Below are positions 19,471 to 44,624 of a stretch of 45,358 nucleotides of DNA, one piece after another (position 1 is the first letter of the stretch; each line of letters opens with the position of its first letter). The notes beneath the pieces are model-generated. The model saw nothing but the letters and a program-made list of their open reading frames with translations. It made no database searches and was not told where the DNA came from. This DNA is from Desulfobulbaceae bacterium (GTDB lineage Bacteria > Desulfobacterota > Desulfobulbia > Desulfobulbales > Desulfobulbaceae). The position numbers and the translations under genes are program-made. The stretch covers positions 1-45,358 of the forward strand of contig JAFLKR010000080.1 of the NCBI GenBank assembly GCA_019163135.1. Direction: 5' to 3'.

Positions 19471-19899
19471 CTATCGGGGAGAAGTGGGAGAAGATCGTTT
19501 TTCAAGCTCTTTAATCCGTTCCCATTGGGCACGGAGTTCTTGTTCATTGCCGACGGGGGCGCCAGCGAAGACATGGGGGTGGCGTCTTATCATTTTCGCA
19601 ACTATTTGTGCAAAGACATCGTCTACGGTGAAACGTTGCTGCTCGGTATAAATGGTGATCAACATGGTGAGAATGAAGAAAACGTCGCCGATTTCCTCGC
19701 AAACATCTTCTCCTCGGTCCTTGTCAATAGCCTCAATCAGTTCCTGGCATTCTTCGACCAAATAATTTTTCAGAGATATCGGGGTTTGCTTTCCATCCCA
19801 TGGGCAACCATCGGCACCTCGCAAGGTGACTATAATTTGTTGCAAGCGACTGAAAGCGTCGGAGGCAGGGAAGTCCTGGGAAGATTCCGTGCTGGTCAT
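19471..19899 (-). CDS. mazG: MazG-family nucleoside triphosphate pyrophosphohydrolase
   Basis: MazG-type enzymes cleave (d)NTPs to monophosphate and pyrophosphate, removing aberrant nucleotides or adjusting alarmone levels. This is the short form at 142 residues, one catalytic domain. The metal-binding EExxE..ExxD pattern is intact: EECQELIEAI (48-57) and EEIGDVFF (68-75). The entry segment GCPWDGKQTPISLKNYL and RRHPHVF are also typical. Its start overlaps the stop of the receiver protein gene by 4 bases, so it is translated with the che operon. A link between this enzyme and chemosensory signalling is unexplained and may be chance. Confidence 0.9.
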   Translation of the reverse strand: MTSTESSQDFPASDAFSRLQQIIVTLRGADGCPWDGKQTPISLKNYLVEECQELIEAIDKDRGEDVCEEIGDVFFILTMLITIYTEQQRFTVDDVFAQIVAKMIRRHPHVFAGAPVGNEQELRAQWERIKELEKRSSPTSPR

Positions 19900-20465
19900 C
19901 TGGATTCGAGAATCTGGAGAGCCTGTTCGATACGATGGAATTCATCTTGCCGGCTATCGCCAAGGATGTCCTCAAGCCGGTCAAGTAAACGGACGAGATT
20001 GCTGTTGGTTATTTCAAGATTCTGAATGGTTTGAGCCGCTGAGGATTCGGTAACATCCATCGCCTCCCTGAGATCCCCAGCATTTTTCATCAACGCTTTG
20101 ACTTCCGCTATTCTTTCCAGGCGGAGAAACAATTCATCGAAATTTACTGGTTTTTCCAGATAATCGACGGCTCCTTTTTTCATGGCGTCAACCGCGGTAT
20201 CTACCGATGAATGAGCGGTAATAACAATCACCTCGATCTCAACACTTTTCTCTTTTGCAAGGTTGAGTAATTCAATTCCGCCGATATCCCCAGGCATCAC
20301 CAAATCGGTGATGACCACGTCAAACGGCATAGCGTGGAGCAATTTCGCGGCCTCCGTGCCATCGGAGGCTACCGTAACCTCATAGCCTTCTTTGCTAAGA
20401 CGTTTTTCGAATAATTTTCGGATGACCGGATCATCATCGGCAATAAGAATCGTCATAGTATTCAT
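19896..20465 (-). CDS. Receiver-domain protein with C-terminal coiled coil
   Basis: Residues 1-120 form a response-regulator receiver: acidic pocket DDD (10-12), phosphoacceptor D54 in VVITDLVMP, the conserved T in VIVITAHSS and K104 in YLEKPV. The remaining 65 residues (about 122-189) are predicted helical, rich in Leu, Glu, Asp and Arg with heptad-like spacing, and match no DNA-binding domain I recognise. It could be the CheY-like output or a phosphate sink of the neighbouring che system, with the tail used for dimerisation or partner binding. No strong ribosome-binding site is visible. A second ATG three codons in is an alternative start. Confidence 0.85.
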   Translation of the reverse strand: MNTMTILIADDDPVIRKLFEKRLSKEGYEVTVASDGTEAAKLLHAMPFDVVITDLVMPGDIGGIELLNLAKEKSVEIEVIVITAHSSVDTAVDAMKKGAVDYLEKPVNFDELFLRLERIAEVKALMKNAGDLREAMDVTESSAAQTIQNLEITNSNLVRLLDRLEDILGDSRQDEFHRIEQALQILESR

Positions 20466-20507: not shown

Positions 20508-21344
20508 CTATTTCAACTGATAAAAAATAGACCGGAGATGGCGTTTTGGAATGAATCGAGGGCATATGCCGGTCAGAGACTCGGTGGAACCGATGATCAG
20601 ATAACCATCTGGTTCCAGCACATCGGCTATTTTGTTAAAGAGTTTTTTCCGGTCCTCCAATGTGAAATAAATGGCGACGTTTCTGCAGAGCACGATATCA
20701 AATTTCCCCAGGCCGATGAGGGGCAGCATGAGATTGAGTTTACGAAAATTAGCCATGGCCCGGATCTGGTCATTCACCTTCCAGGTCTGACCGGCCATGG
20801 TAAAATATTTGGTAAGTTTATCCCTGGCAAGGCCTCGTTCGATTTCAAATTTGTTGTATTTCCCGCTGCTGGCCTGGGCGACGGCGGCGTCCGAAATATC
20901 CGTGCCCAAAAGTTTGATCGCATACTTGGACAAGTCACCAAGCAGTTCTTGTAAAACGATAGCAACTGAATACAATTCCTGTCCGGTAGAACTGGCCGCG
21001 CTCCATATTTTTAGAGGGGTTTTGAAGCCGATTTTTTTAGAGGCCCGTGCATCGATCAACTCCGGTAAGATTTTGTGCTGTAACAGTTGAAAAGGCCCGG
21101 TATCGCGGAAAAAAAGGGTTTCGTTGGTTGAGATAGCGTCAATAATCTTACGTTCGATAACTTTAGTCGCGTCCGCTTTTGTTTTCTTAACAAAATCCTG
21201 GTAACTCGAGCATCCATGTTCCTCGGCAATAGTATTCAGCCGGGTCTCAAGGAGATACTTTTTACTTTCATCAAGATATATCCCCGAAATTTCGTAGATA
21301 TATTTAGTGATAAGCTTGATCTCTTCAGGTGATATTTTAAGCAT
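20508..21344 (-). CDS. cheR: Chemoreceptor methyltransferase CheR
   Basis: CheR methylates glutamates on chemoreceptors with S-adenosylmethionine during adaptation. The 278-residue protein has the all-helical N-terminal domain (about 1-75). A SAM-binding methyltransferase domain follows, with TNETLFFRD (73-81), IWSAASSTGQELYS (113-126), LLGTDISDAAVAQA and DIVLCRNVAIYF. The usual SAACSTGQEPYS motif has Ser for Cys and Leu for Pro here, which is conservative. It lies 25 bases after cheB. The receptor in this operon lacks an evident NWETF-type CheR tether, so CheR probably works without one. Confidence 0.95.
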   Translation of the reverse strand: MLKISPEEIKLITKYIYEISGIYLDESKKYLLETRLNTIAEEHGCSSYQDFVKKTKADATKVIERKIIDAISTNETLFFRDTGPFQLLQHKILPELIDARASKKIGFKTPLKIWSAASSTGQELYSVAIVLQELLGDLSKYAIKLLGTDISDAAVAQASSGKYNKFEIERGLARDKLTKYFTMAGQTWKVNDQIRAMANFRKLNLMLPLIGLGKFDIVLCRNVAIYFTLEDRKKLFNKIADVLEPDGYLIIGSTESLTGICPRFIPKRHLRSIFYQLK

Positions 21345-21369: not shown

Positions 21370-22518
21370 CTATTTAACCGATTTGATTATTTCACCGGCT
21401 ATTTTGTCCAGAGGTACCACCACATCGGTCAAGCCGAGTTCCGCAGGGGCTTTGGGCATACCATACACAACACAACTCGCCTCATTCTGCCCAATTACCA
21501 AGGTGCCTTTCTGTTTGAGGATTTGTAATCCTTTGGTGCCGTCAGAACCCATACCGGTCATAATGACAGCTGTTGCCCGGCCTACATAATAATCGGCAAC
21601 GGAACGAAACAAATAGTCGGCGGATGGTTTGCAGGAATTCTCAGGAGGATCATTGGTGATTTTGATCAATCGGTTTGTGCCGTCGGTGGAAGCAACCAAT
21701 TTCATCTGTTTACCACCGGGGGCGATATATGCAATGTTTGGTTGTAAGGCTTCGCCGTCCTGCGCCTCTTTGACCGTAAGCGCACATTTGGCGTTAAGGC
21801 TGTTGGCCAGGGATTTGGTGAAAACGGGCGGCATATGCTGGACAATCACAATGGGCACCCCGAGATCACCGGGTAGCATGGGCATCATCCTTGCGAGGGC
21901 ATTTGGACCGCCGGTGGAAATGCCGATGGTAACAATTTCAGATTTTCCCTGGCGACGCATGTTGCCGATAACGGGTCCTGCCATTTTGCGATCGGTTAGC
22001 GTGGTCGAGGAGACCGACGGGTTTTTCGTATCACCTGCTCCGACAACGGATTTGCGGGCGACCATCCCAACCCGTGCGTCCGCCTGCAAGGATCCAACCG
22101 TGGTGCGACCAGTCTGAAAAGCTTTGATCAACGGGGCCAGATAGGTCCGAAGATGCTGTTTGCTATCAACAATATTGGTAGTATTAGGTTTGAGGATAAA
22201 ATCATAGGCACCGAGTTCCAAGGCCCGCATCGTCATTGCGCCGCCTTCGCTGGTTAAGGTTGAAACCATGATAGCTGAAACGTGCGGGGCGTGTTGCTGC
22301 AGATACTGGAGTACTTCAATGCCATTCATTTCAGGCATTTCGATATCAAGGGTCAGGAGATCGGGCTTAAGTGTCTGGATTTTTGCAACGGCAATTTTAC
22401 CGTTATGGGCGACCCCAACCACCTCAACTCCAGGCATTTCAGCGAGAATGTCGCTGACCGCCTTTCGGTAAACAATGGTGTCGTCCACCACCAGAACTTT
22501 TATTTTTTTCCCAAACAT
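21370..22518 (-). CDS. cheB: Chemotaxis protein-glutamate methylesterase/glutaminase CheB
   Basis: CheB removes methyl groups from receptors when phosphorylated by CheA. It has an N-terminal receiver with D58 in LLTLDIEMPEMNG and K110. A linker spans about 137-190, longer than usual and basic. The C-terminal esterase has the catalytic triad in its normal places: S201 in GISTGGPNA, H228 in VQHMPP and D326 in TGMGSDG. The length of 382 residues is within the family range. It sits 49 bases after cheW and 25 before cheR. Confidence 0.96.
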   Translation of the reverse strand: MFGKKIKVLVVDDTIVYRKAVSDILAEMPGVEVVGVAHNGKIAVAKIQTLKPDLLTLDIEMPEMNGIEVLQYLQQHAPHVSAIMVSTLTSEGGAMTMRALELGAYDFILKPNTTNIVDSKQHLRTYLAPLIKAFQTGRTTVGSLQADARVGMVARKSVVGAGDTKNPSVSSTTLTDRKMAGPVIGNMRRQGKSEIVTIGISTGGPNALARMMPMLPGDLGVPIVIVQHMPPVFTKSLANSLNAKCALTVKEAQDGEALQPNIAYIAPGGKQMKLVASTDGTNRLIKITNDPPENSCKPSADYLFRSVADYYVGRATAVIMTGMGSDGTKGLQILKQKGTLVIGQNEASCVVYGMPKAPAELGLTDVVVPLDKIAGEIIKSVK

Positions 22519-22567: not shown

Positions 22568-23047
22568 TTATCGCTCCATTCCCCTGCCCAGATTTTCCGA
22601 TTCGATCCTCAGGACTTCTTTAATATCCAAAATGCCGATTAATTTGTTCTCGGTTTTATAAACACCGGTAAAAAAACCGCCCTGCAAACCGCTCATGTTG
22701 GCGGGTGCCGGTTCGATTTTATCCGGATCGGCCATAACCACATCGCTGATGCGAGTGACCAACAGGCCGACATGCTCACCGGGGGTGTTCACAATAATAT
22801 TGCGCGATTCATTGCTGAGTTCCGCTTTGCCCAATCCCAATTTCTGACCAAGATCAATGATGGTGACAATCTGACCACGCAAGTTGAGGATGCCGATCAT
22901 GTAATCCGGTGCCTGCGGGACTTTGGTCATTTCCATGAGTTTATTGATTTCCTGGACTTTGAGAATATCCATGCCGCAAAGCGCATCGCCCACATAAAAC
23001 GTGGCCAGTTCTATGGTGTTTTTTGTAGATATACTTTGTTCAGCCAT
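22568..23047 (-). CDS. cheW: Chemotaxis coupling protein CheW
   Basis: CheW links receptor tips to the CheA kinase. The 159 residues form one CheW domain with the usual landmarks: FYVGDALCGMDILKVQEI near 18-35, APDYMIGILNLRGQIVTIIDLGQKLGL (46-72) and EHVGLLVTRISDVV. GTGGAG precedes the ATG. It is placed between the receptor and cheB. Confidence 0.95.
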   Translation of the reverse strand: MAEQSISTKNTIELATFYVGDALCGMDILKVQEINKLMEMTKVPQAPDYMIGILNLRGQIVTIIDLGQKLGLGKAELSNESRNIIVNTPGEHVGLLVTRISDVVMADPDKIEPAPANMSGLQGGFFTGVYKTENKLIGILDIKEVLRIESENLGRGMER

Positions 23048-23098: not shown

Positions 23099-24817
23099 TC
23101 ATACTTTAAAATGACGAACTAACTCTTTCAGTTTTTCCGCCATGGTGGTCAAGTCGGCGGCACTGGATTTCACCCTTGCGCTACCTTTGAAAATGGAATC
23201 GGCGGCTTGACTGACTTCAGTAATATCTTGGGCCACGGAACTGGAAACCGTTGAAACCTGGGCGACATTTTCTGTAACTTCCTGAATACCGATGGACGCC
23301 TGACTGATATTTGTGGCGATTTCTTTGGTTGTAGCGGACTGCTCATCAACTGCGGTGACAATCGAGGTGACGATATTGTTTACCTCACCGATTACTTGGG
23401 TGATCTGCTGAATCTGTTTCACCGTTGCATCGGTAGATTCCTGGATGGAACTGATCCGGTTTTTGATTTCCCCGGTAGCTCCAGCTGTTTGTTTGGCCAG
23501 TTCCTTAATTTCATTGGCCACCACCGCGAAACCTTTCCCGGCATCTCCGGCACGAGCGGCCTCAATGGTTGCATTCAAGGCCAACAGATTTGTTTGTTCA
23601 GATATCTCGGTAATCGCTTCTGTAACCTTACCGATCTCAATCGCCGCTCGTCCAAGTTCGTCAACCTTTTCAGAAGCCGAATTAGCCTCTCGCACCGCGG
23701 CCTTTGCGATTTCCTGAGCCTTTTCGGTAGACCTCGCGATACCGTTGATCGTGGAGGTCATTTCTTCGGTGGCGGTGGAAACCAAGGCGATATTGGTTGC
23801 TGCCTGTTCGGTTGCCGCAGCGACTGTCGCCATATTGGCGCTCATTTCTTCGGCGGCAGCAGCGACAGAAATAGTTCTTGCTGCGGTATCATCCGCACTT
23901 ATGGAGAATTCCTCAGCTGACACGCCAAGTTTGCCGGACGAATTGAACAGCGTGTCACCCGTGTCGGAAATATTTCTGATCATGACATTGAGCTTTTCGG
24001 TCATCCCGCTCAATTTATTGATCATATTGCCGATTTCGTCATTTGTTCTGGCCTTGAGTTTGCCACTCAGATCACCATCGGAAATCTTGTCGATGAAACC
24101 GTTGACCTCACGCAATGGCTTAATGATATTGGATTGAAGCAGATAGATACAGATAACGGCGAGAGCTACAAGAGTGGCCGATACCGACAGCAGTACGTTC
24201 CAGCGGGCAGTCGCCACGGCCTTGTGTGCCCCTTCCAATGAACTGATGATCTCAAAGGCACCGTGAATTTCGCCCTCACGCCATCCTTCCTTGGTCCCCC
24301 CAACGGCATCTTTGGCACCGACAGGGTCACCGTGACAATAGAGGCAATCAGCAGTCAAACGGACTGGTTTGAAGTAACGAATCTGATTTTCCTCAATAAT
24401 GATTTTTTCTTTTATACCGGTTCGAGCAAATTCTTCCAGTACCCCTTTTTCCAAATCGTTTGGAGTATTTTGCGGATTTCTGGGTGCTACCTTTGGCGCA
24501 CGGAACGTGAATCCAGCCTCCTGAGCCTTGGAGGCCGCAATCTGCATGGCAGTGACCACCGGCACGGCTTCCAGGATGTTGGAGGAGTTTAATTGGTCAA
24601 AGGGTTTGATGACGCCGCTCTGCAGTTTTTTGGACATCTGTTCGCGGGCCGCTTCCGCCATCAAGACGATACCGGTGCTTTTGGAGATAATGGCTTCTTC
24701 AGCGCCGGAACGAATATCGTTGATTCGCTGCCAGGCAAGGATTCCTGCAATAATCACAGGTCCAAGCAAGGTTAAAATGAGAATTTTCCATTTGATGCTT
24801 AAGTGAGACAATTTCAT
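23099..24817 (-). CDS. Methyl-accepting chemotaxis protein with CXXCH (Tll0287-like) sensor domain
   Basis: This 572-residue receptor has a first membrane span at about 12-28 and a periplasmic domain of 29-205 with CLYCH at 158-162 followed by GDP. A second span (207-227), a HAMP domain (about 228-282) and a cytoplasmic signalling helix pair follow, with the conserved tip [19 protein letters not shown] (404-422) and [15 protein letters not shown]. The sensor resembles DUF3365/Tll0287-like domains, in which CXXCH binds haem c; the preceding [10 protein letters not shown] and following GAFEIISSL fit. It therefore probably senses redox state or a small gas ligand. There is no C-terminal NWETF. 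AGAGGAAG precedes the ATG. It is the only receptor of this che operon, so it is probably its dedicated input. Confidence 0.93.
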
Positions 24818-24854: not shown

Positions 24855-27740
24855 TCATACAACCATGGCAGATTTGGCGTAACGGTGCACGCTTTCCATG
24901 AGCCGTTCCTTGTCGAGTTTGATATGGTACTCATCCACACCGACCGACTTGCCTCGGGCTATATCTTCATCCGCAGCCAAAGTGGTCAGGGCGATAACAG
25001 GTAAATGACTGAATCTTTTGTCATTTTTTATTTTTTCCGTTAGCTCGAATCCGTTCATGTTGGGCATTTCAATGTCCGTGACCACCATGGTGATCTCGTC
25101 GCCATGTTCTTCCAGGACACTCCAGGCAATTTTGCCATCCTCACCTTCCAGGACCTTAAACCCGGCTTCGTCCATGTAACCTTTCACCTGATTGCGGAAA
25201 AAATTAGAATCTTCCACAATTAAAATGGTCGGGGCCTGGGCTTTATCAATTTCAATCTCGCCATAGGCGACATGGTCTTCGAACCATTGAGGGTTAGAAA
25301 TCTGTATAATTTCGAAGATATTGACCAGCATGGTTGTTTTGCCGGCAATGATGGCCGACCCCATTATACCAGGTTGCTTGAGGGTGGAATCATCAATATC
25401 CGTATTGATTTCAATGGCATCAATTGGACCGGTAGCCAACAAGCCAACATCTTTTCCGGCAAGATGGAAAACAATAACCAGTAGATCATCCCGGTCGGCC
25501 AACGGCATTACCGATGCCACCTCATCGATACTGATCAACGGTAAGCTGCCACCGCGATACTGCATAACCCGACGTCCGCCAATCTCCTCGATATGGTGTC
25601 GTTTAATCTTCTCAACCCGTTCTACTTGATTGAGCGGCACGCCGAACTGCTCCAGTGGCGAACTCGAAAAAGTGAGTAGCGCCTGCTTGTCACGGGTCTT
25701 GGTGATATTATCCTTGGCCGCTTCTGCCAGTTCGTTGGCACGCTCACAGCCATCGAGTGACGTCAGACCAGCCATTCGTGCGATGTTGCTGACATCAAGG
25801 ATCAAGGCAATGCGGCCATCACCCATGATGGTGGCACCGGCATACCCCTGGCATTGCTGCAAATGTCGGCCCAAGGGCTTGATGACGATTTCCTCGGAGT
25901 CATGCAGGCGATCGACAATTAGACCATATTTCATCGCGCCGGTTGAAACGACAACGATATTGAGGGCACTGGAAGCGCTTAATCGACGTTCCTTTGATTT
26001 TCTATGCAATTCCTGGGAACTATTTGTGGGAGGCGATGGTGGTGGTTCGCCTTTTTCTTTGAACAGCGGGGTTGATTTGGATCGTCGGTCCGCTATGTTG
26101 ACCCGCCGGTCCGATCTGGTCTCCTCCTGTACCGGATCATAGTAGGTCGGATCAATATCAAATACTTCGGCCATTCGGATCAAGGGCAGGAGATTGCCGC
26201 GCAGTCGAACCACCTCGGCGTCGCCGACCCGTTCCACTCGCTCTTTGACTTTGGCCGCCGGAATACGAAGGAGTTCTTCGAGATTGACTTGGGGAATAGC
26301 GTAACGCTCACCGCCTGTCATAACGATCTGACAGGGGATAATCGCCAGGGTCAACGGCAGTTTGATGCCGATGGTCGATCCTTTACCGACCTCGGATTCA
26401 ATCTCAATAGAACCGCCCAATTGATCAAGGTTGGTTTTGACTACATCCATTCCAACGCCCCGACCGGAGACGTCGGTGACTTTTTTGGCGGTGGAGAAAC
26501 CAGGCAACAAAATAAGGTTAATACGCTCTTTTTCCGACATTAGCTTGGCTTGATCGGAGGTGATCAATCCTTTCTTGACCGCTGTTTCGGCGAGCATGTT
26601 ACCATCAAGTCCCTTGCCGTCATCGCTGATTTCGATCACTACCTGTCCGGCAGCGTGATAAGCTTTTAAGACGATGAGTCCGCGAAGATCCTTTCCTTTT
26701 TTTCTTCGGTCTTCCGGGGATTCGATCCCGTGATCAACCGAATTTCGGATCAAATGAGTCAGGGGATCATTGATGGCTTCGATAATGGTCTTGTCGAGTT
26801 CGACATCCTTGCCGACAATGGTCAGATCGATATGTTTACCGAGTTTTTTAGAGAGATCCCGGACGACGCGCGGGAATTTATTGAAGACGTTGCCGATGGG
26901 TTGCATGCGGGTAAGCATGATAGCCTCCTGCAATTCGGAGGTCACCAGATCGATGCGTTGACCAACAGCTTCAGCGTTTCTCATATCTCCGGAGGTAATT
27001 GTCTGGAGCAATTGATTGCGCGAGAGCACTAATTCGCCCGCCAGGTTCATCAACTGGTCCAGTAGACTGACCGTTACCCGGATACTTGTGTCTATTTTCT
27101 GTGATTCCGAAGGCTTACGTGTTCTGGTGACACCGCCGGCATCTTGCGAAACAGCACTGACAGAATCAGTATCGTCCTCATGTTCCTCCACAAGGTCATC
27201 ATCGGTGGCGTCATCGGTTATGTCTTCAAAGGTTTCGCTGATGGTTTCCTGTTCCGGCAGGCTGGATTCAATCTCTTCAAGGACAGGCTGTAGTTCAGGT
27301 TGAGGAACAACCGCAGTCGACCGCTCTGGTTTAGGTCCTGAGGGGGGCGCCTCGCCGCCTTCGTAAATAATATTGAGGGCGTTAGTATGACAGGAAATAT
27401 CGACATTGTTACTGTTGCCGACATCTTCAATGAGGTGTTGCAGTTCATCGGCGGCGAGCAACAGCACATTGATTATGTCCGGGTTGGGGATAAGTTTGCC
27501 GCTGCGGATAAGGCCGAGGACATTTTCGGCAGCATGGGCGAGATCCTGGATAACGGACAGTCCCATAAAACCCGCTCCGCCTTTGATGGAATGAGCGGCT
27601 CGAAATACTTTATTGACGAGTTCGACATCAATATCGGCCCCACTTTCTTCGATGGCAAGTAGGTCATTTTCGATATCAGAGAGATGCTCAAGCGATTCTT
27701 CTATAAAACCCTGCAATATTTCATCATCTTCAATAGACAT
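24855..27740 (-). CDS. cheA: Hybrid chemotaxis histidine kinase CheA with C-terminal receiver
   Basis: This is a 961-residue CheA. It contains an HPt domain with H50 in FRAAHSIKGGAGF and an acidic linker (about 130-215). A dimerisation helix pair (217-280) is followed by an ATPase with N-box HLIRNSVDHGIE (329-340), G1 DDGKGLD (373-379) and G2 GRGVGMDVV (426-434). Next comes a CheW-like regulatory domain interrupted by a basic, proline-rich insert (about 535-590), a second CheW-like domain (about 685-820), and a receiver with D889 in VVTDIEMP and K941. The ATG at 27740 follows GAGGGAG; the upstream in-frame ATG at 27785 lacks one. A receiver fused to CheA is typical of systems without stand-alone CheY or with non-flagellar outputs. 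It is the first gene of the operon that ends with mazG. Confidence 0.94.
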   Translation of the reverse strand: MSIEDDEILQGFIEESLEHLSDIENDLLAIEESGADIDVELVNKVFRAAHSIKGGAGFMGLSVIQDLAHAAENVLGLIRSGKLIPNPDIINVLLLAADELQHLIEDVGNSNNVDISCHTNALNIIYEGGEAPPSGPKPERSTAVVPQPELQPVLEEIESSLPEQETISETFEDITDDATDDDLVEEHEDDTDSVSAVSQDAGGVTRTRKPSESQKIDTSIRVTVSLLDQLMNLAGELVLSRNQLLQTITSGDMRNAEAVGQRIDLVTSELQEAIMLTRMQPIGNVFNKFPRVVRDLSKKLGKHIDLTIVGKDVELDKTIIEAINDPLTHLIRNSVDHGIESPEDRRKKGKDLRGLIVLKAYHAAGQVVIEISDDGKGLDGNMLAETAVKKGLITSDQAKLMSEKERINLILLPGFSTAKKVTDVSGRGVGMDVVKTNLDQLGGSIEIESEVGKGSTIGIKLPLTLAIIPCQIVMTGGERYAIPQVNLEELLRIPAAKVKERVERVGDAEVVRLRGNLLPLIRMAEVFDIDPTYYDPVQEETRSDRRVNIADRRSKSTPLFKEKGEPPPSPPTNSSQELHRKSKERRLSASSALNIVVVSTGAMKYGLIVDRLHDSEEIVIKPLGRHLQQCQGYAGATIMGDGRIALILDVSNIARMAGLTSLDGCERANELAEAAKDNITKTRDKQALLTFSSSPLEQFGVPLNQVERVEKIKRHHIEEIGGRRVMQYRGGSLPLISIDEVASVMPLADRDDLLVIVFHLAGKDVGLLATGPIDAIEINTDIDDSTLKQPGIMGSAIIAGKTTMLVNIFEIIQISNPQWFEDHVAYGEIEIDKAQAPTILIVEDSNFFRNQVKGYMDEAGFKVLEGEDGKIAWSVLEEHGDEITMVVTDIEMPNMNGFELTEKIKNDKRFSHLPVIALTTLAADEDIARGKSVGVDEYHIKLDKERLMESVHRYAKSAMVV

Positions 27741-28143
27741 ATACGGTTCTCCCTCAATAATATGGTCATGACACAAATAAAACAAAAGATCGGTGCTAGG
27801 TGGCTTTCGCTCGGCTGGTATTCCGATGCATGCCGCTGAACCTTATACCACTGTGGTCCTAATAATTATTGTACGTATACAAAAAAGATTGTACAGAATT
27901 TTTTTAGAGATTGATTATTATTGAAAAAAATAAGAATTTTTCCGGGGTAATTTTTCCGAAAATTTAACATAGCCCGGGAATATTAAAAATTTGGTTTGAA
28001 GCAGAGCGATACAGGATAGATAAGCGGAACAAGGAGGGGATAACGATTAGGCTGGGAGCCACCCCATTGTTTTGCCGCTGGCAAGAGCCACCCCAGAACT
28101 GCGGGGGCGGCTGAGCGGGAAACCGAGAAGAAAGGGAAGGGGG
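27741..28143. other. AT-rich intergenic region upstream of cheA
   Basis: No coding frame is convincing in these 400 bases. The middle part (about 27850-27990) is very AT-rich and should hold the cheA promoter. ATTGTAC occurs at about 27866 and again at about 27889, and ATTTTTCCG-like strings occur twice near 27935-27960. I could not find a clear sigma-54 or sigma-28 promoter here. Confidence 0.4.
28086..28112 (-). terminator. Hairpin downstream of the FKBP gene
   Basis: AGCCACCCC (28086-28094) faces GGGGCGGCT (28104-28112). In minus-strand RNA all nine pairs form with one G-U wobble, whereas plus-strand RNA would have an A-C mismatch. This fits the 3' end of the minus-strand FKBP transcript, 30 bases after its stop. 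There is no T-tract, so it is not a textbook intrinsic terminator. Confidence 0.35.
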
Positions 28144-37106: not shown

Positions 37107-38870
37107 ATGAAAATTCTGGTGATAGGTGGGGGTGGTCGCGAGCATGCTCTTGTCTGGAAACTTAAACAATCCGATAAGGTTGACACGATATTCTGTGCAC
37201 CCGGCAATGCTGGTATTAAAAAAATTGCAACTTGTATTGATCTTGCCGCTAACGATATTCACGGTTTACTGACCTTTGCGTTGAACGAAAAGATTGACCT
37301 GACCATTATCGGGCCGGAAGAACCGCTCACTTTGGGTATTGTTGATAACTTTCAAGCGAAAGGTTTACGCGTTTTTGGACCAGACAGCAAAGGCGCGGTA
37401 CTCGAGGGCAGCAAGGTTTTTGCCAAAGATTTTTTGAAAAAATACCAGATTCCCAGTGCCCATTACGGCGCTTTTAAGAAAAGGGGGGAAGCCAAAAAAT
37501 TCGTCAAAACCATCGGGGTCCCTTGTGTGGTCAAGGCGGACGGTCTTGCGGCTGGCAAAGGGGTTATCATAGCCCAGACCATTGCCGAAGCCGAACAGGC
37601 GATTGATCTCATCATGAAAGATAAGGCCTTCGGCTCCGCCGGCAATAAAGTGGTGGTTGAGGAGTTCCTTATCGGTGAAGAAGCCTCGTTCATTGCCTTC
37701 ACCGATGGAAAAACTGTCCTTCCTCTACCATCATCTCAGGATCATAAAGCAATTTTTGACGGTGATAAAGGTCCCAATACAGGTGGTATGGGCGCCTATT
37801 CTCCGGCTCCGGTGATGACCGATGCTCTGACCCAGAGGGTTATTGATGAGGTCATGTTGCCTACTATCCGGGGTATGGCTACTGAAGGGCGACCGTATAA
37901 AGGGATGCTCTATGCCGGCCTGATGATCGATAATAATCGGATCAATGTGCTCGAATTCAACTGCCGCTTCGGTGATCCGGAATGCCAGCCTTTGTTGATG
38001 CGCCTGCAGAGTGATCTTGTTGATATCTTGGACGGTTGTATCGACGGAACGCTTGACCAGGTGCAACTGGTCGTCGACCCACGGCCTACGGTATGTGTGG
38101 TTATTGCTTCGGAAGGCTACCCTGGCAAATATGAGACCGGTAAACCCATCAACGGACTGCAGAAAGCCGCCACTATTGAAGGTGTAGAGGTCTTCCATTC
38201 AGGAACAGTAAGTAAAGGTCGACAAATCGTTACCAATGGCGGCCGGGTTCTAGGGGTGACCGCTATTGGTAAAACTATTAAAGAAGCCATCGAAAGGGCC
38301 TATCTCGCTGTTGATGTGATCAACTGGCAGGGGTGTTACTGTCGGCGCGACATCGGCCACAAGGCTTTATCGCGCCTCAAGGGTGCGGTGGTGGGCATTG
38401 TCATGGGAAGCGATTCTGACCTGCCGGTGATGCGGGCTGCCGTTGATTTTCTGGCTGCTTCCGGTATCAGCTACGAACTGACCATATCTTCGGCCCATCG
38501 TACCCCTGACCAAGCCGTCTCCTATGCGAAAACAGCGAGAGATCGGGGGCTTAAGATTATTATTGCCGGCGCTGGAATGGCAGCCCATCTGGCCGGGGTT
38601 CTCGCAGCCCATACCACTTTGCCAGTCATCGGGGTGCCCCTTGACGCCTCCTCGCTCAACGGACTGGATGCTCTGCTCTCCACCGTGCAGATGCCTCCAG
38701 GGATTCCTGTCGCGACCATGGGTATCGGCAAAGCCGGGGCCAAGAACGCTGCGGTCTTGGCGGTTCGTATTTTGGCCATTGGAGATCCCGCATTGCAGCA
38801 GAAACTCGAACTCCATGCCCAAGAGATGGCCGAACAGGTCGCGGCCAAGAACAAAGCCCTGACAATGTGA
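37107..38870 (+). CDS. purD-purE: Fused phosphoribosylamine-glycine ligase / 5-(carboxyamino)imidazole ribonucleotide mutase (PurD-PurE)
   Basis: One continuous 587-residue frame joins two purine enzymes. Residues 1-422 are PurD, which makes GAR from phosphoribosylamine and glycine. They show IGGGGREHALVWKL at the N-terminus, the ATP-grasp motif KADGLAAGKGV (143-153), PNTGGMGAYSP and NCRFGDPE. Residues 425-587 are PurE class I, with VMGSDSDLPVM (432-442), SSAHRTP (461-467, H464 at the active site) and AGAGMAAHLAGV. The joint (RRDIGHKALSRLKG) is short. The two steps are not consecutive in the pathway, so the fusion more likely ensures equal amounts than direct channelling. AGAGGTAG precedes the ATG. 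The last codons overlap the next gene. Confidence 0.95.
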   Translation: MKILVIGGGGREHALVWKLKQSDKVDTIFCAPGNAGIKKIATCIDLAANDIHGLLTFALNEKIDLTIIGPEEPLTLGIVDNFQAKGLRVFGPDSKGAVLEGSKVFAKDFLKKYQIPSAHYGAFKKRGEAKKFVKTIGVPCVVKADGLAAGKGVIIAQTIAEAEQAIDLIMKDKAFGSAGNKVVVEEFLIGEEASFIAFTDGKTVLPLPSSQDHKAIFDGDKGPNTGGMGAYSPAPVMTDALTQRVIDEVMLPTIRGMATEGRPYKGMLYAGLMIDNNRINVLEFNCRFGDPECQPLLMRLQSDLVDILDGCIDGTLDQVQLVVDPRPTVCVVIASEGYPGKYETGKPINGLQKAATIEGVEVFHSGTVSKGRQIVTNGGRVLGVTAIGKTIKEAIERAYLAVDVINWQGCYCRRDIGHKALSRLKGAVVGIVMGSDSDLPVMRAAVDFLAASGISYELTISSAHRTPDQAVSYAKTARDRGLKIIIAGAGMAAHLAGVLAAHTTLPVIGVPLDASSLNGLDALLSTVQMPPGIPVATMGIGKAGAKNAAVLAVRILAIGDPALQQKLELHAQEMAEQVAAKNKALTM

Positions 38871-39502: not shown

Positions 39503-39522
39503 TTAAAATGCCGGAGGCACAT

Positions 39523-39846
39523 ATGGCTGATTTGCTGTGGAATAAAGCGTTTGCGATGGAACAGACTGCGGATGACGAAGAACTGCTGGAGGAATTGCTG
39601 ATCTTGTTTAAAGATTCAGCGGCATCCGATTTGGAACAGTTGCAACAGGCGGTGGCGACTAATAACCCTGCAGGAGTTGTAAGAGCGGCTCATAGTCTCA
39701 AAGGGGCCTCGGCTAGTCTGGGGATAGAGGGGATTCGTCAGTTGGTCATGGCGATGGAGTCCGATGCTCGCAATAACTCAGTTACGGTCGCCAGGGACAA
39801 TCTGGCCGTCTTGATCGAACTGCTCGATCAACTTAAAAACATCTAA
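39523..39846 (+). CDS. Stand-alone HPt (histidine phosphotransfer) protein
   Basis: This 107-residue single-domain phosphotransfer protein has the HPt motif AAHSLKGASASLG with phosphorylatable H57. The rest is a four-helix bundle by its Leu/Ala pattern. An upstream ATG at 39508 is in frame, but GGAGG at 39512-39516 is spaced for the ATG at 39523. Such proteins relay phosphate between hybrid kinases and receivers. No kinase or receiver is adjacent. The hybrid CheA and the receiver-coiled-coil protein lie 12-20 kb away and are possible but unproven partners. Confidence 0.88.
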   Translation: MADLLWNKAFAMEQTADDEELLEELLILFKDSAASDLEQLQQAVATNNPAGVVRAAHSLKGASASLGIEGIRQLVMAMESDARNNSVTVARDNLAVLIELLDQLKNI

Positions 39847-41177: not shown

Positions 41178-42239
41178 CTACATCAGACGACGAAAAGCGG
41201 AAGCTTTGATAACTGCCACCACCTCTTTCCCTTCCTCCAGTTCCAGTTCACGCCTCGATTCCGGTACGATCTGGACAATCAAGGGTTGCGAACCGCACTG
41301 CAATTCGACCCGGACTCTGTTGCCAACCGTGAAGATTTTGCGGACCGTGCAAGGCAAAAGATTTCTGGCACTGGTTGCCTCGGGATGACGTTTAAAAAGA
41401 AGAATTTCCCGTGACTCCAGTTCAAAGATGTTTTCTTCGTTTTCACCATAATCGGTTAGAATGAGGCTGACATCCCCCCATTGATAAGCCCAAAGATCTC
41501 CATGGGGCTTCGGTTGGCCAAGCCGTAGCAGATTCACATATCCCTGGCGGGGTGCAGCCCACGTTGACTGAGCAAGTTCCTCAGTTGCCACCTGTCTCAC
41601 GATCTGACCATTTTCGATAATCAGGATCTGCTCGGTCATCAGGCGCATTTCCAAGAGCGAATGGCTAATAAACAGCAAGGGAATATCGAAATTAGAAAAA
41701 ACCTTGTTCAGATAGAGCATGATTTGGGACTTCAGTTCTTCGTCTAGTCCGGCCAAGGGCTCATCCATGAGGATAAGGCGGGGACAGGTAAGGACTGTTC
41801 GTGCCAAGGCGACCCGCTGACGCTCACCACCAGAAAGCAGATTGACTCCACGGTCAAGGAGATGCCCAAGGTGGAGTACCTCAATAATTGCCTCTGGCTT
41901 GATATGTCGATCCTGCTCCGGTGTCCGTCGCCATCCATAGAGCAGGTTGCGCTGCACACTCATGTGAGGAAAGAGATGTGCATGCTGGAAAACAACTCCC
42001 ACTCTCCGTTTTTCCGGTGGCACATTGATGCCGGCTGTACTGTCAAATAGGACAGCTTCACCCAATCGAATTCGGCCGTTATCGGGTTTTAGAAGACCTG
42101 CAAGCAGATGCATCAGGGTGGATTTACCGCACCCGGACGCCCCGAAAATACCAACCCGTCTACCATCTAGGCTGAATGCAGCGTCAAGATGGAAGGCCCC
42201 GAGTTTTTTTTGGACCGAGACCTCAAACTGCATGGTCAT
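41178..42239 (-). CDS. modC: Molybdate ABC transporter ATP-binding protein ModC
   Basis: ModC powers molybdate import through ModB. The ATPase domain (1-235) has Walker A GASGCGKS (33-40), the Q-loop FQHAHLFPHM, signature LSGGERQRVALAR, Walker B LILMDEPLAGLD and switch H in LLFISHS. A C-terminal Mop/TOBE domain (about 285-350, SARNLLPCTVRKIF) can bind oxyanion for trans-inhibition. At 353 residues it matches the family. The ATG overlaps the modB stop by 4 bases. Confidence 0.96.
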   Translation of the reverse strand: MTMQFEVSVQKKLGAFHLDAAFSLDGRRVGIFGASGCGKSTLMHLLAGLLKPDNGRIRLGEAVLFDSTAGINVPPEKRRVGVVFQHAHLFPHMSVQRNLLYGWRRTPEQDRHIKPEAIIEVLHLGHLLDRGVNLLSGGERQRVALARTVLTCPRLILMDEPLAGLDEELKSQIMLYLNKVFSNFDIPLLFISHSLLEMRLMTEQILIIENGQIVRQVATEELAQSTWAAPRQGYVNLLRLGQPKPHGDLWAYQWGDVSLILTDYGENEENIFELESREILLFKRHPEATSARNLLPCTVRKIFTVGNRVRVELQCGSQPLIVQIVPESRRELELEEGKEVVAVIKASAFRRLM

Positions 42240-42916
42240 CCCTTGTTGAGGGTTTTGGCGGCAGCGCTACTGGCTAGCAGCACTATGAAGGAAAGAAGGA
42301 TGGAAACAAGGCAGAGGGAAAGCGCCATTCGATCCCCCCTCGGCGAACTGGTGTATTCATAGATCGCCAAGGGGATGGTCTGGGTAACGCCTGGAATATT
42401 GCCCGCCAAAATGATGGTAGCACCAAATTCCCCAAGGCTACGGGCAAACATCAGAGTCATGCCGGCTAAAATGGCGCGACCGGAGAGGGGCAGCGTAATG
42501 GTGAAAAAGGTATCCCAAAATCCGGCTCCCAGAGTTCTTGCCGCTCTGCGATAGGAAGCGTCAACCGACTCCATGCCCAGGCGAATGGAGCGGACTAACA
42601 AGGGGAAACCAACCACGGCTGAGGCTATGATCGCCCCGGTCAGGGTAAAGATGATTTGAATGTTAAACTTGGCCAGAAATTGACCTATCCAGCCGTGACG
42701 ACCAAAAAGGACAAGCAGCAGATAACCGATAACCACCGGCGGCAGGACCAGGGGCAGATTGACAAGTCCCTCCCAAAATGCCTTACCGGGGATACGAGTA
42801 TGGACAAGGATGTAGGCCACACCAATGCCCAGAGGGGTGGACAATAGGGTTGCGGAGAAGGCCACTTTGAAGGAAAGAATAATGGCCTGTATATCCGAAG
42901 GTTGGAGAAAAGACAT
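42236..42916 (-). CDS. modB: Molybdate ABC transporter permease ModB
   Basis: This 226-residue inner-membrane permease has about five spans. The binding-protein-dependent transport signature is at residues about 113-170 (MESVDASYRRAARTLGAG, the EAA loop that contacts ModC). The start of the fold, IILSFKVAFSATLLSTPLGI, and GRHGWIGQFLAKFNI are typical of ModB. It lies 41 bases after modA and overlaps modC. Confidence 0.96.
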   Translation of the reverse strand: MSFLQPSDIQAIILSFKVAFSATLLSTPLGIGVAYILVHTRIPGKAFWEGLVNLPLVLPPVVIGYLLLVLFGRHGWIGQFLAKFNIQIIFTLTGAIIASAVVGFPLLVRSIRLGMESVDASYRRAARTLGAGFWDTFFTITLPLSGRAILAGMTLMFARSLGEFGATIILAGNIPGVTQTIPLAIYEYTSSPRGDRMALSLCLVSILLSFIVLLASSAAAKTLNKG

Positions 42917-42957
42917 GGTGTCGCCACTAATAGAACTGTTAAGAGCGCTTTCTCATC

Positions 42958-43719
42958 CTATTTTGCGGCGCTGAATCCGTATTTCAAGAAGACCTTTGTC
43001 CCTTCTGGTCCGGTGAGAAACGCATAGAAGGCTTTGGCCTCGGATTTCTTGGCACCATCTACGGTTAAAGCTATTGGATAGGTCACACGATCATACAAAT
43101 CTTGGGGTACCTCGAAGAGAATGACGGCCTCGGCAGCCATCAGGGCATCGGTTTTGTAGACAAAGGCGCCTTCGGTTTCACCACGATCAGCATAGGTCAG
43201 AGCCTGACGAACATCCTTTGCCATGACCAACTGTTTCCCGTCCTCGAGTTGCTTGTAAATCCCTGCCTTTTCCATAGCCTGAACTGCATATTCACCGGCT
43301 GGGACACTTTTGGGACTGCCGATAGCGATTTGTTTGAGCTTGACGATATCGGCCATTGAGGTCACCGCCGGATTTCTCTTGCCGGCAAAGACCAAAGTAT
43401 TAGCAGCCAGGATTTTCTCGGTAGCTGGCTCAACCCTTTTTTCCTCGCGCAGGAAGGTCATCCATTTCTGATTGGCGGAGATGAAGATATCGGCGGGCGC
43501 GCCCTCATTGATCTGTTTAGCCAGCGCTCCGGATGGGCCATAGTTGGGTATGATCTGGGGATGTTTTCCCGATGCCCCAAATTGGGAGATAAGCTCCTTG
43601 AGAGCATCGGTCATGCTGGCCGGCACGGAAAGGCTGATCTCCTCAGCCGCCTGCAAGGATGAAACCGTCAGTAATACGCTGATGGCTATCAAAGAAAAGA
43701 GCATTTTAATTTTTTTCAT
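42958..43719 (-). CDS. modA: Molybdate-binding periplasmic protein ModA
   Basis: ModA captures molybdate or tungstate in the periplasm. The ATG at 43719 follows AGGAT and begins a signal peptide (MKKIKMLFSLIAISVLLTVS, cut near SLQA-AEE). An earlier in-frame ATG at 43734 lacks a ribosome-binding site. The mature protein shows SLSVPASMTDALKEL, PNYGPSGALAKQINEGAPADIFISAN and IAIGSPKSVPAGEYAVQAM, the residues that wrap the oxyanion. The length is 253 residues. It sits 95 bases after modE. Confidence 0.96.
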   Translation of the reverse strand: MKKIKMLFSLIAISVLLTVSSLQAAEEISLSVPASMTDALKELISQFGASGKHPQIIPNYGPSGALAKQINEGAPADIFISANQKWMTFLREEKRVEPATEKILAANTLVFAGKRNPAVTSMADIVKLKQIAIGSPKSVPAGEYAVQAMEKAGIYKQLEDGKQLVMAKDVRQALTYADRGETEGAFVYKTDALMAAEAVILFEVPQDLYDRVTYPIALTVDGAKKSEAKAFYAFLTGPEGTKVFLKYGFSAAK

Positions 43720-43814
43720 GGTTTTTATCCTCATGGGTAGGGTGACTGATCACTGCAGCAATCACGGCCTGAAAGTGTTTTTTAGAAACTTTGACGGTTG
43801 AGGGGGGGATTGTA

Positions 43815-44624
43815 TCAAACTGTGGCCAAGAGAACATCCGAGGCTTTGATTATCGCTGTGATTTTCATGCCTGGAACCAGTCCAAGGCGTTTGACACTTG
43901 CTGAGGTCAAGATAGAGGTGACGGTGTCACCGCCTGGTAAGTCGATAACCACCTCATCATTAACCACTCCGGAAACTATCCGGTTCACCTGGCCTTCAAG
44001 GATATTGCGGGCTGATATTTTTTGTCTGTCGATCTCAAGCCCTAGCATTACTGAAGGTGCCTTGACGATGGCTAGAACTTCGGTCCCTGGTTGCAATCCT
44101 AATCGCTGTACAGAGTTCTCGGTGATGACTGAGACAATCGTGTCCTTACCCTTCAAGGAAATGGTGACCACACTGTTAACTGCCCCTTTTTCTATTTGGG
44201 TGACATTGCCAAGCCAAACATTGCGCGCGCTGATCTTCATTTCTATTCTCCTTAAAGTTTTCAGGGTGTTGAAGGCTTCTTCCGGTGAAAAATAAAAAAA
44301 GTTGAGGAAGCTTGTGAATTCTCTTTGGAGGAGATGAGCCCGTTTGAGGAACTCATGCCCAGCCTCAGTGAGTATCGTGCCACCACCACCACTACCACCT
44401 ACCTGACGGCTGATCAGCGGTTCTGGTGAGAGGTTGTTAATATTTTCAATTCGCTCCCAGGCGGCCTTATAACTCATACCTACCACCTTGGCGGCTTGAT
44501 TGATTGAGCCACAGGTATGGATTTCCTGAAGGAGTTTTACGACTGGGTTCTTAGTGTCCGAAGACCCAATCATATATTGGAGGAAGAGAGAATCTGCTAC
44601 GGGGGGGCTTTGTTTTGTTGCCAT
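43815..44624 (-). CDS. modE: Molybdate-responsive transcriptional regulator ModE
   Basis: ModE represses molybdate uptake genes when it binds molybdate. The 269 residues contain a winged helix-turn-helix (about 25-105, with GSINQAAKVVGMSYKAAWERIE and the wing GGSGGGGTILTEAG). Two tandem Mop domains follow (129-196 and 201-269), each with the ISARN motif and an RLGL.PG.....I(V/I)KA segment. This is the full-length, molybdate-sensing form. It is the first gene of the mod operon, with an upstream ModE-box-like palindrome that suggests autoregulation. Confidence 0.96.
   Translation of the reverse strand: MATKQSPPVADSLFLQYMIGSSDTKNPVVKLLQEIHTCGSINQAAKVVGMSYKAAWERIENINNLSPEPLISRQVGGSGGGGTILTEAGHEFLKRAHLLQREFTSFLNFFYFSPEEAFNTLKTLRRIEMKISARNVWLGNVTQIEKGAVNSVVTISLKGKDTIVSVITENSVQRLGLQPGTEVLAIVKAPSVMLGLEIDRQKISARNILEGQVNRIVSGVVNDEVVIDLPGGDTVTSILTSASVKRLGLVPGMKITAIIKASDVLLATV

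Follow-up and report, generated by a model that had tools for sequence, protein, structure and literature searches.

The Tll0287-like family of sensor domains binds a redox-active, gas-binding c-haem (PMC12889525, PMC8396549), and a 2026 preprint has named it sCache_heme, the domain being a Cache fold into which a segment with CXXCH is inserted (PMC12889525). GSU0582 and GSU0935 of Geobacter sulfurreducens, c-haem chemoreceptors of this kind, bind NO and CO and have a redox-linked ligand switch at Met60, with different midpoint potentials (PMC8396549). For a P. azotoformans member of the signalling type, which has no axial Cys, the preprint reports tight NO binding with a slow off-rate and no stable complex with O2 (PMC12889525). 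For Desulfovibrio, DcrA is cited in PMC3460858 as a reported oxygen/redox sensor. Here, we describe a receptor encoded in the window, by which we mean the whole stretch of 45,358 nucleotides that was analysed. The protein is an ordinary, well-supported member of this recently described family, placed in a typical che operon (Table 1).

Table 1. Features of the che operon and of the haem-type receptor in the window
Feature	Position	Strand	Evidence
Haem-type methyl-accepting chemotaxis receptor, 572 aa (sCache_heme + HAMP + MCPsignal)	23099..24817	-	Pfam and model
Tll0287-like (PF11845, sCache_heme) periplasmic sensor domain, residues 39-191	24245..24703	-	PF11845 E 2.6e-29; 5b82 Z 14.8
CLYCH haem c attachment motif (putative), residues 158-162	24332..24346	-	sequence and conservation
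Val85, column of the distal-ligand Met of GSU0935-type domains	24563..24565	-	alignment; Met column inferred by motif and spacing
cheA, hybrid kinase with C-terminal receiver	24855..27740	-	Hpt, H-kinase_dim, HATPase_c, CheW, Response_reg
cheW	22568..23047	-	PF01584 E 9.8e-33
cheB	21370..22518	-	PF01339 and PF00072; NF001965 392 bits, cut-off 293
cheR	20508..21344	-	PF01739 E 1.6e-48
Response regulator, receiver domain with C-terminal extension	19896..20465	-	PF00072; NtrC/NtrX-type receiver; conserved in cluster

The receptor gene opens with an ATG at 24817, and its product runs from a first transmembrane helix (TM1) through the periplasmic domain and TM2 to HAMP and the MCP signalling domain. 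An earlier note on this DNA had placed the gene at 23099-24817, with CLYCH at residues 158-162 between two membrane spans, in a DUF3365/Tll0287-like setting and ahead of a standard signalling half, and each of these points is borne out. The positions agree with the sequence, the profile check that it proposed for the sensor region returns PF11845 (formerly DUF3365) at 103 bits against a cut-off of 24.1 (profile positions 4-142 of 144), and Pfam recovers HAMP (PF00672, residues 229-276, 25.7 bits against a cut-off of 25) and MCPsignal (PF00015, residues 363-524, E 9e-31). In an AlphaFold2 model of residues 1-228, built from a 27-row alignment (mean pLDDT 92.1), a long helix 8-66 represents TM1 running on into the periplasm, strands follow at 104-106, 138-141, 145-153 and 184-193, the haem motif is carried by a short helix 159-162 between the last two strands, and helix 195-227 includes TM2. 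The two helices that flank the motif, 8-66 and 195-227, are partly hydrophobic and are followed by HAMP, from which an extracytoplasmic location of the sensor domain is predicted.

The best match to the model among solved structures is Tll0287 (5b82), both by Foldseek (E 6.1e-7) and by VIA-align (150 residues, rmsd 3.4), followed by WalK, MCP and Cache sensor entries at Z 7-11. The sequence profile of the window clade also finds 5b82 (E 8.8e-12); the GSU0582/GSU0935 structures gave no sequence match from either profile and are absent among the fold matches listed. Ligand-binding Cache domains match the model as well, at Z 5-7, and small molecules are common ligands of Cache domains, so the haem could be structural or vestigial while the Cache fold binds a small-molecule ligand. 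We consider this very unlikely, as C158, C161 and H162 are invariant in all 25 clade members, which span 34-74% identity, and the CXXCH motif is conserved in 99% of the family (PMC12889525).

How would the haem be attached, and what faces it on the distal side? A ResB-type cytochrome c maturation protein is found in the genome and CcmF gives no match there; system I (CcmF-type) maturation was therefore rejected, and system II is the likely attachment route for a haem c that, judging by its sequence, the receptor would bind covalently at CLYCH. In stand-alone members, cyanobacterial and proteobacterial ones, a Cys occurs in the stretch at the start of the second helix, and in the cyanobacterial proteins it is the sole Cys outside CXXCH. 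We had considered placing the axial Cys of Tll0287 in helix 1 near Met61, and dropped this placement because stand-alone plasmid-borne relatives have their Cys at the start of helix 2. The axial Cys of the Tll0287-type stand-alone proteins is absent from the window domain, where Cys158 and Cys161 are the only cysteines.

Most other signalling members from related genomes have an EAMS/ELMS motif at the start of the second helix. In one example (L152) the Met of this motif lies 85 residues before the haem His, compared to 84 between Met60 and His144 of GSU0935, so we take it as the Met60 column; as GSU0582 and GSU0935 gave no sequence match and are absent among the fold matches listed, these ligand positions are mapped by motif and spacing only. 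Here the window clade reads Glu-Ala-Val85-Pro86-Val, with Val85 and Pro86 in 25/25 members, and the distal Met of the GSU0582/GSU0935 type, as assigned by motif and spacing, is thus absent. The structure model suggested in the earlier note gave the Tll0287 fold at high confidence, and by alignment the domain has neither of the known distal ligands, the Cys and the Met. With neither ligand at the distal site, an open site appears most likely, with NO or redox sensing. Met53 and Met61 are conserved in 24/25 clade members and His185 in 23/25, so each of these could still serve as a protein distal ligand.

The nature of the signal, NO or redox, is extrapolated from relatives, and NO specificity in particular would follow one published signalling member, that of P. 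azotoformans (PMC12889525). Possibly the receptor is a redox sensor proper, in which the haem senses the periplasmic potential, or that of an electron acceptor, via a Met53 or Met61 switch and NO binding is incidental. The near-invariance of these two methionines would fit such a switch. The closest named relatives of the organism, which also favour a redox role, belong to Desulfobulbus, a genus of anaerobic sulfate reducers. A redox-linked switch with differing midpoint potentials has moreover been proposed for the two Geobacter receptors (PMC8396549), and DcrA, as cited in PMC3460858, counts against NO specificity. However, the column of the Geobacter-type ligand holds Val throughout the window clade, and although we take the redox reading seriously, we lean against it.

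The sCache_heme domain is common in related genomes: at least one was found in 51 of the 57 searched, and one genome has 14. The window genome has three such proteins, the receptor and two others, which from their sequences we read as histidine kinases (L001 on contig C88 and L003 on contig C33). The C88 kinase keeps the AMS methionine, and the C33 kinase has NPAM instead.

The operon runs cheA, receptor, cheW, cheB, cheR and response regulator, with gaps of 25-51 bases. The likely start of cheA is the ATG at 27740 rather than the TTG at 27785 that opens the reading frame, because orthologue matches begin near residue 16 of the TTG frame and because of the start context. The response regulator, an NtrC/NtrX-type receiver with a C-terminal extension and not a plain CheY, may form an output of the pathway. 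The window also encodes, some 12 kb away from the operon, a stand-alone Hpt domain protein (112 aa, 39508-39846, plus strand), a possible phosphotransfer partner. Elsewhere in the window we noted a PurD-PurE fusion in one reading frame (phosphoribosylglycinamide synthetase domains and AIR carboxylase, 37107-38870, plus strand) and, at 41178-44624 on the minus strand, ABC transporter genes with a regulator containing LysR-type HTH and TOBE domains, resembling molybdate uptake.

Does the che pathway listen to this receptor alone? The earlier note had called it the sole input, and this holds for the operon, where it is the only MCP encoded with cheA, cheW, cheB and cheR, but not for the genome, in which 18 MCPsignal matches correspond to 16 MCP genes, as two pairs lie each within single frames. 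One of these frames (C53:16365-18320, L005:1021-2976) is a 652-aa ORF with two tandem MCP signalling domains and no other Pfam domains. Eight of the 16 MCPs, the window receptor included, have a common tip sequence, and in these eight the C-terminal length after the tip is 157-158 residues, bar one cut by a contig end. The seven same-class receptors share 55-62 of 75 tip residues with the window receptor, compared to 32-41 for the others compared, and the sensor domains of five of the seven are of the four-helix-bundle, HBM or Cache type. Because arrays are generally shared by receptors of one class, the window receptor is most likely one input among several, a step that assumes such sharing here. 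The genome also contains flagellins and four CheAs, of which the paralogue on contig C32 is 64% identical to the operon CheA and has the same hybrid layout. A dedicated single-input pathway would suit the presence of one MCP in the operon, and six further genomes of the window genus have the same haem-receptor arrangement; we nevertheless regard it as highly improbable, given the seven same-class receptors elsewhere in the genome and the many related operons, described below, that lack a receptor at this position. That the whole pathway reads this one signal is, on the same grounds and given the paralogous CheA, not supported.

In relatives, the conserved cluster reads hisG-FKBP-cheA-[slot]-cheW-cheB-cheR-RR-mazG-rpsF, and we read what occupies the slot, the position that separates cheA from cheW, in 80 orthologous clusters from the order, besides that of the window. 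The slot is empty in 60 of the 80 (60 of the 78 that are readable, two ending at a contig end), and in the 52 empty-slot clusters measured, cheA and cheW are no more than 359 bases apart. A haem receptor fills it in 12/80, followed by a second receptor in two of them, a PilJ receptor with a nitrate N-box in 3/80, and another receptor in 3/80. Even in G020, the genome whose CheA is closest (92%), the slot is empty and the haem receptor is encoded elsewhere, on a small separate contig, and close homologues of the haem receptor are also present outside che clusters. The empty slots and the haem receptors outside clusters indicate that the core pathway is independent of the haem receptor and that the slot takes different receptors. 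On the best tree of haem receptors, those in the slot need two or more changes, so they may or may not stem from a single insertion.

The N-box receptors (L114, L137 and L139, Pfam PilJ, from sister genera G027, G038 and G028, respectively) read INLAGRQRMLSQ or INLAGRQRMLTQ at the N-box, an exact fit to the published nitrate pattern [IVL]-[ND]-x-A-G-x-Q-R-M-L-[ST]-Q (PMC6381276). Haem and nitrate receptors make up 15 of the 18 occupied slots, a suggestive pattern, drawn from few genera, that may reflect few events. It would be tempting to see in the slot a recurrent docking place for nitrogen-oxide sensors, haem-c NO-type in some genera and N-box nitrate in sister genera of the same family, with the haem clade as a third sCache_heme distal-ligand type (Val-Pro, open or with a helix-1 Met). 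We offer this idea as speculation that is rather unlikely to hold.

Our preferred reading, which we consider quite probable, is a periplasmic sCache_heme chemoreceptor that signals a change in haem coordination to the operon CheA-CheW, in mixed arrays. Cys158 and Cys161 would receive the haem from system II (ResB-type) maturation, and His162 would serve as its proximal ligand. With both known distal ligands of the family missing, the iron would be five-coordinate or water-bound, or Met53 or Met61 would hold it loosely. Its coordination could then change when NO (or CO) binds or when the redox state of the haem changes, moving the long N-terminal helix against the sheet, and TM2 and HAMP would relay this movement to the kinase-control tip. 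Placed in arrays with same-class receptors, the receptor would act on the operon CheA-CheW, with CheR and CheB providing adaptation.

The locus puts a putative haem-c gas/redox sensor directly in a che operon of Desulfobulbus-type bacteria; on Desulfobulbus chemotaxis and NO, nothing relevant appeared among the titles and abstracts listed. Most useful among the additions of this work are the prediction on the distal ligand and the swappable nature of the slot, which is the one mildly new point. The slot offers a natural experiment, since operons that otherwise match differ in whether they carry a haem receptor, a nitrate receptor or no receptor there, and the published NO-sensor proposal can be put to the test in a member whose distal haem site is different.

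Among described systems, the signalling-fused 'Cluster 2' of sCache_heme (PMC12889525) resembles the window receptor in profile, fold, TM-HAMP-output architecture, lack of an axial Cys and the placing of CXXCH on a short helix that lies between two strands, but the distal column of the window clade is Val-Pro. GSU0582 and GSU0935 share the periplasmic c-haem domain, HAMP and MCP output, whereas their Met60-type distal ligand appears, by alignment, to be replaced by Val85. Tll0287 (PDB 5b82), the closest solved structure in both sequence and fold, is a stand-alone protein with Cys/His haem ligation, in contrast to the window domain with no Cys outside CXXCH. DcrA of Desulfovibrio vulgaris can be likened by description, as a c-type haem chemoreceptor of a sulfate reducer (PMC8396549, PMC3460858). 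Finally, the McpN/PilJ-domain nitrate chemoreceptor (PMC6381276) has an unrelated helical sensor domain and no haem, yet N-box receptors of its type fill the same operon slot in sister genera.
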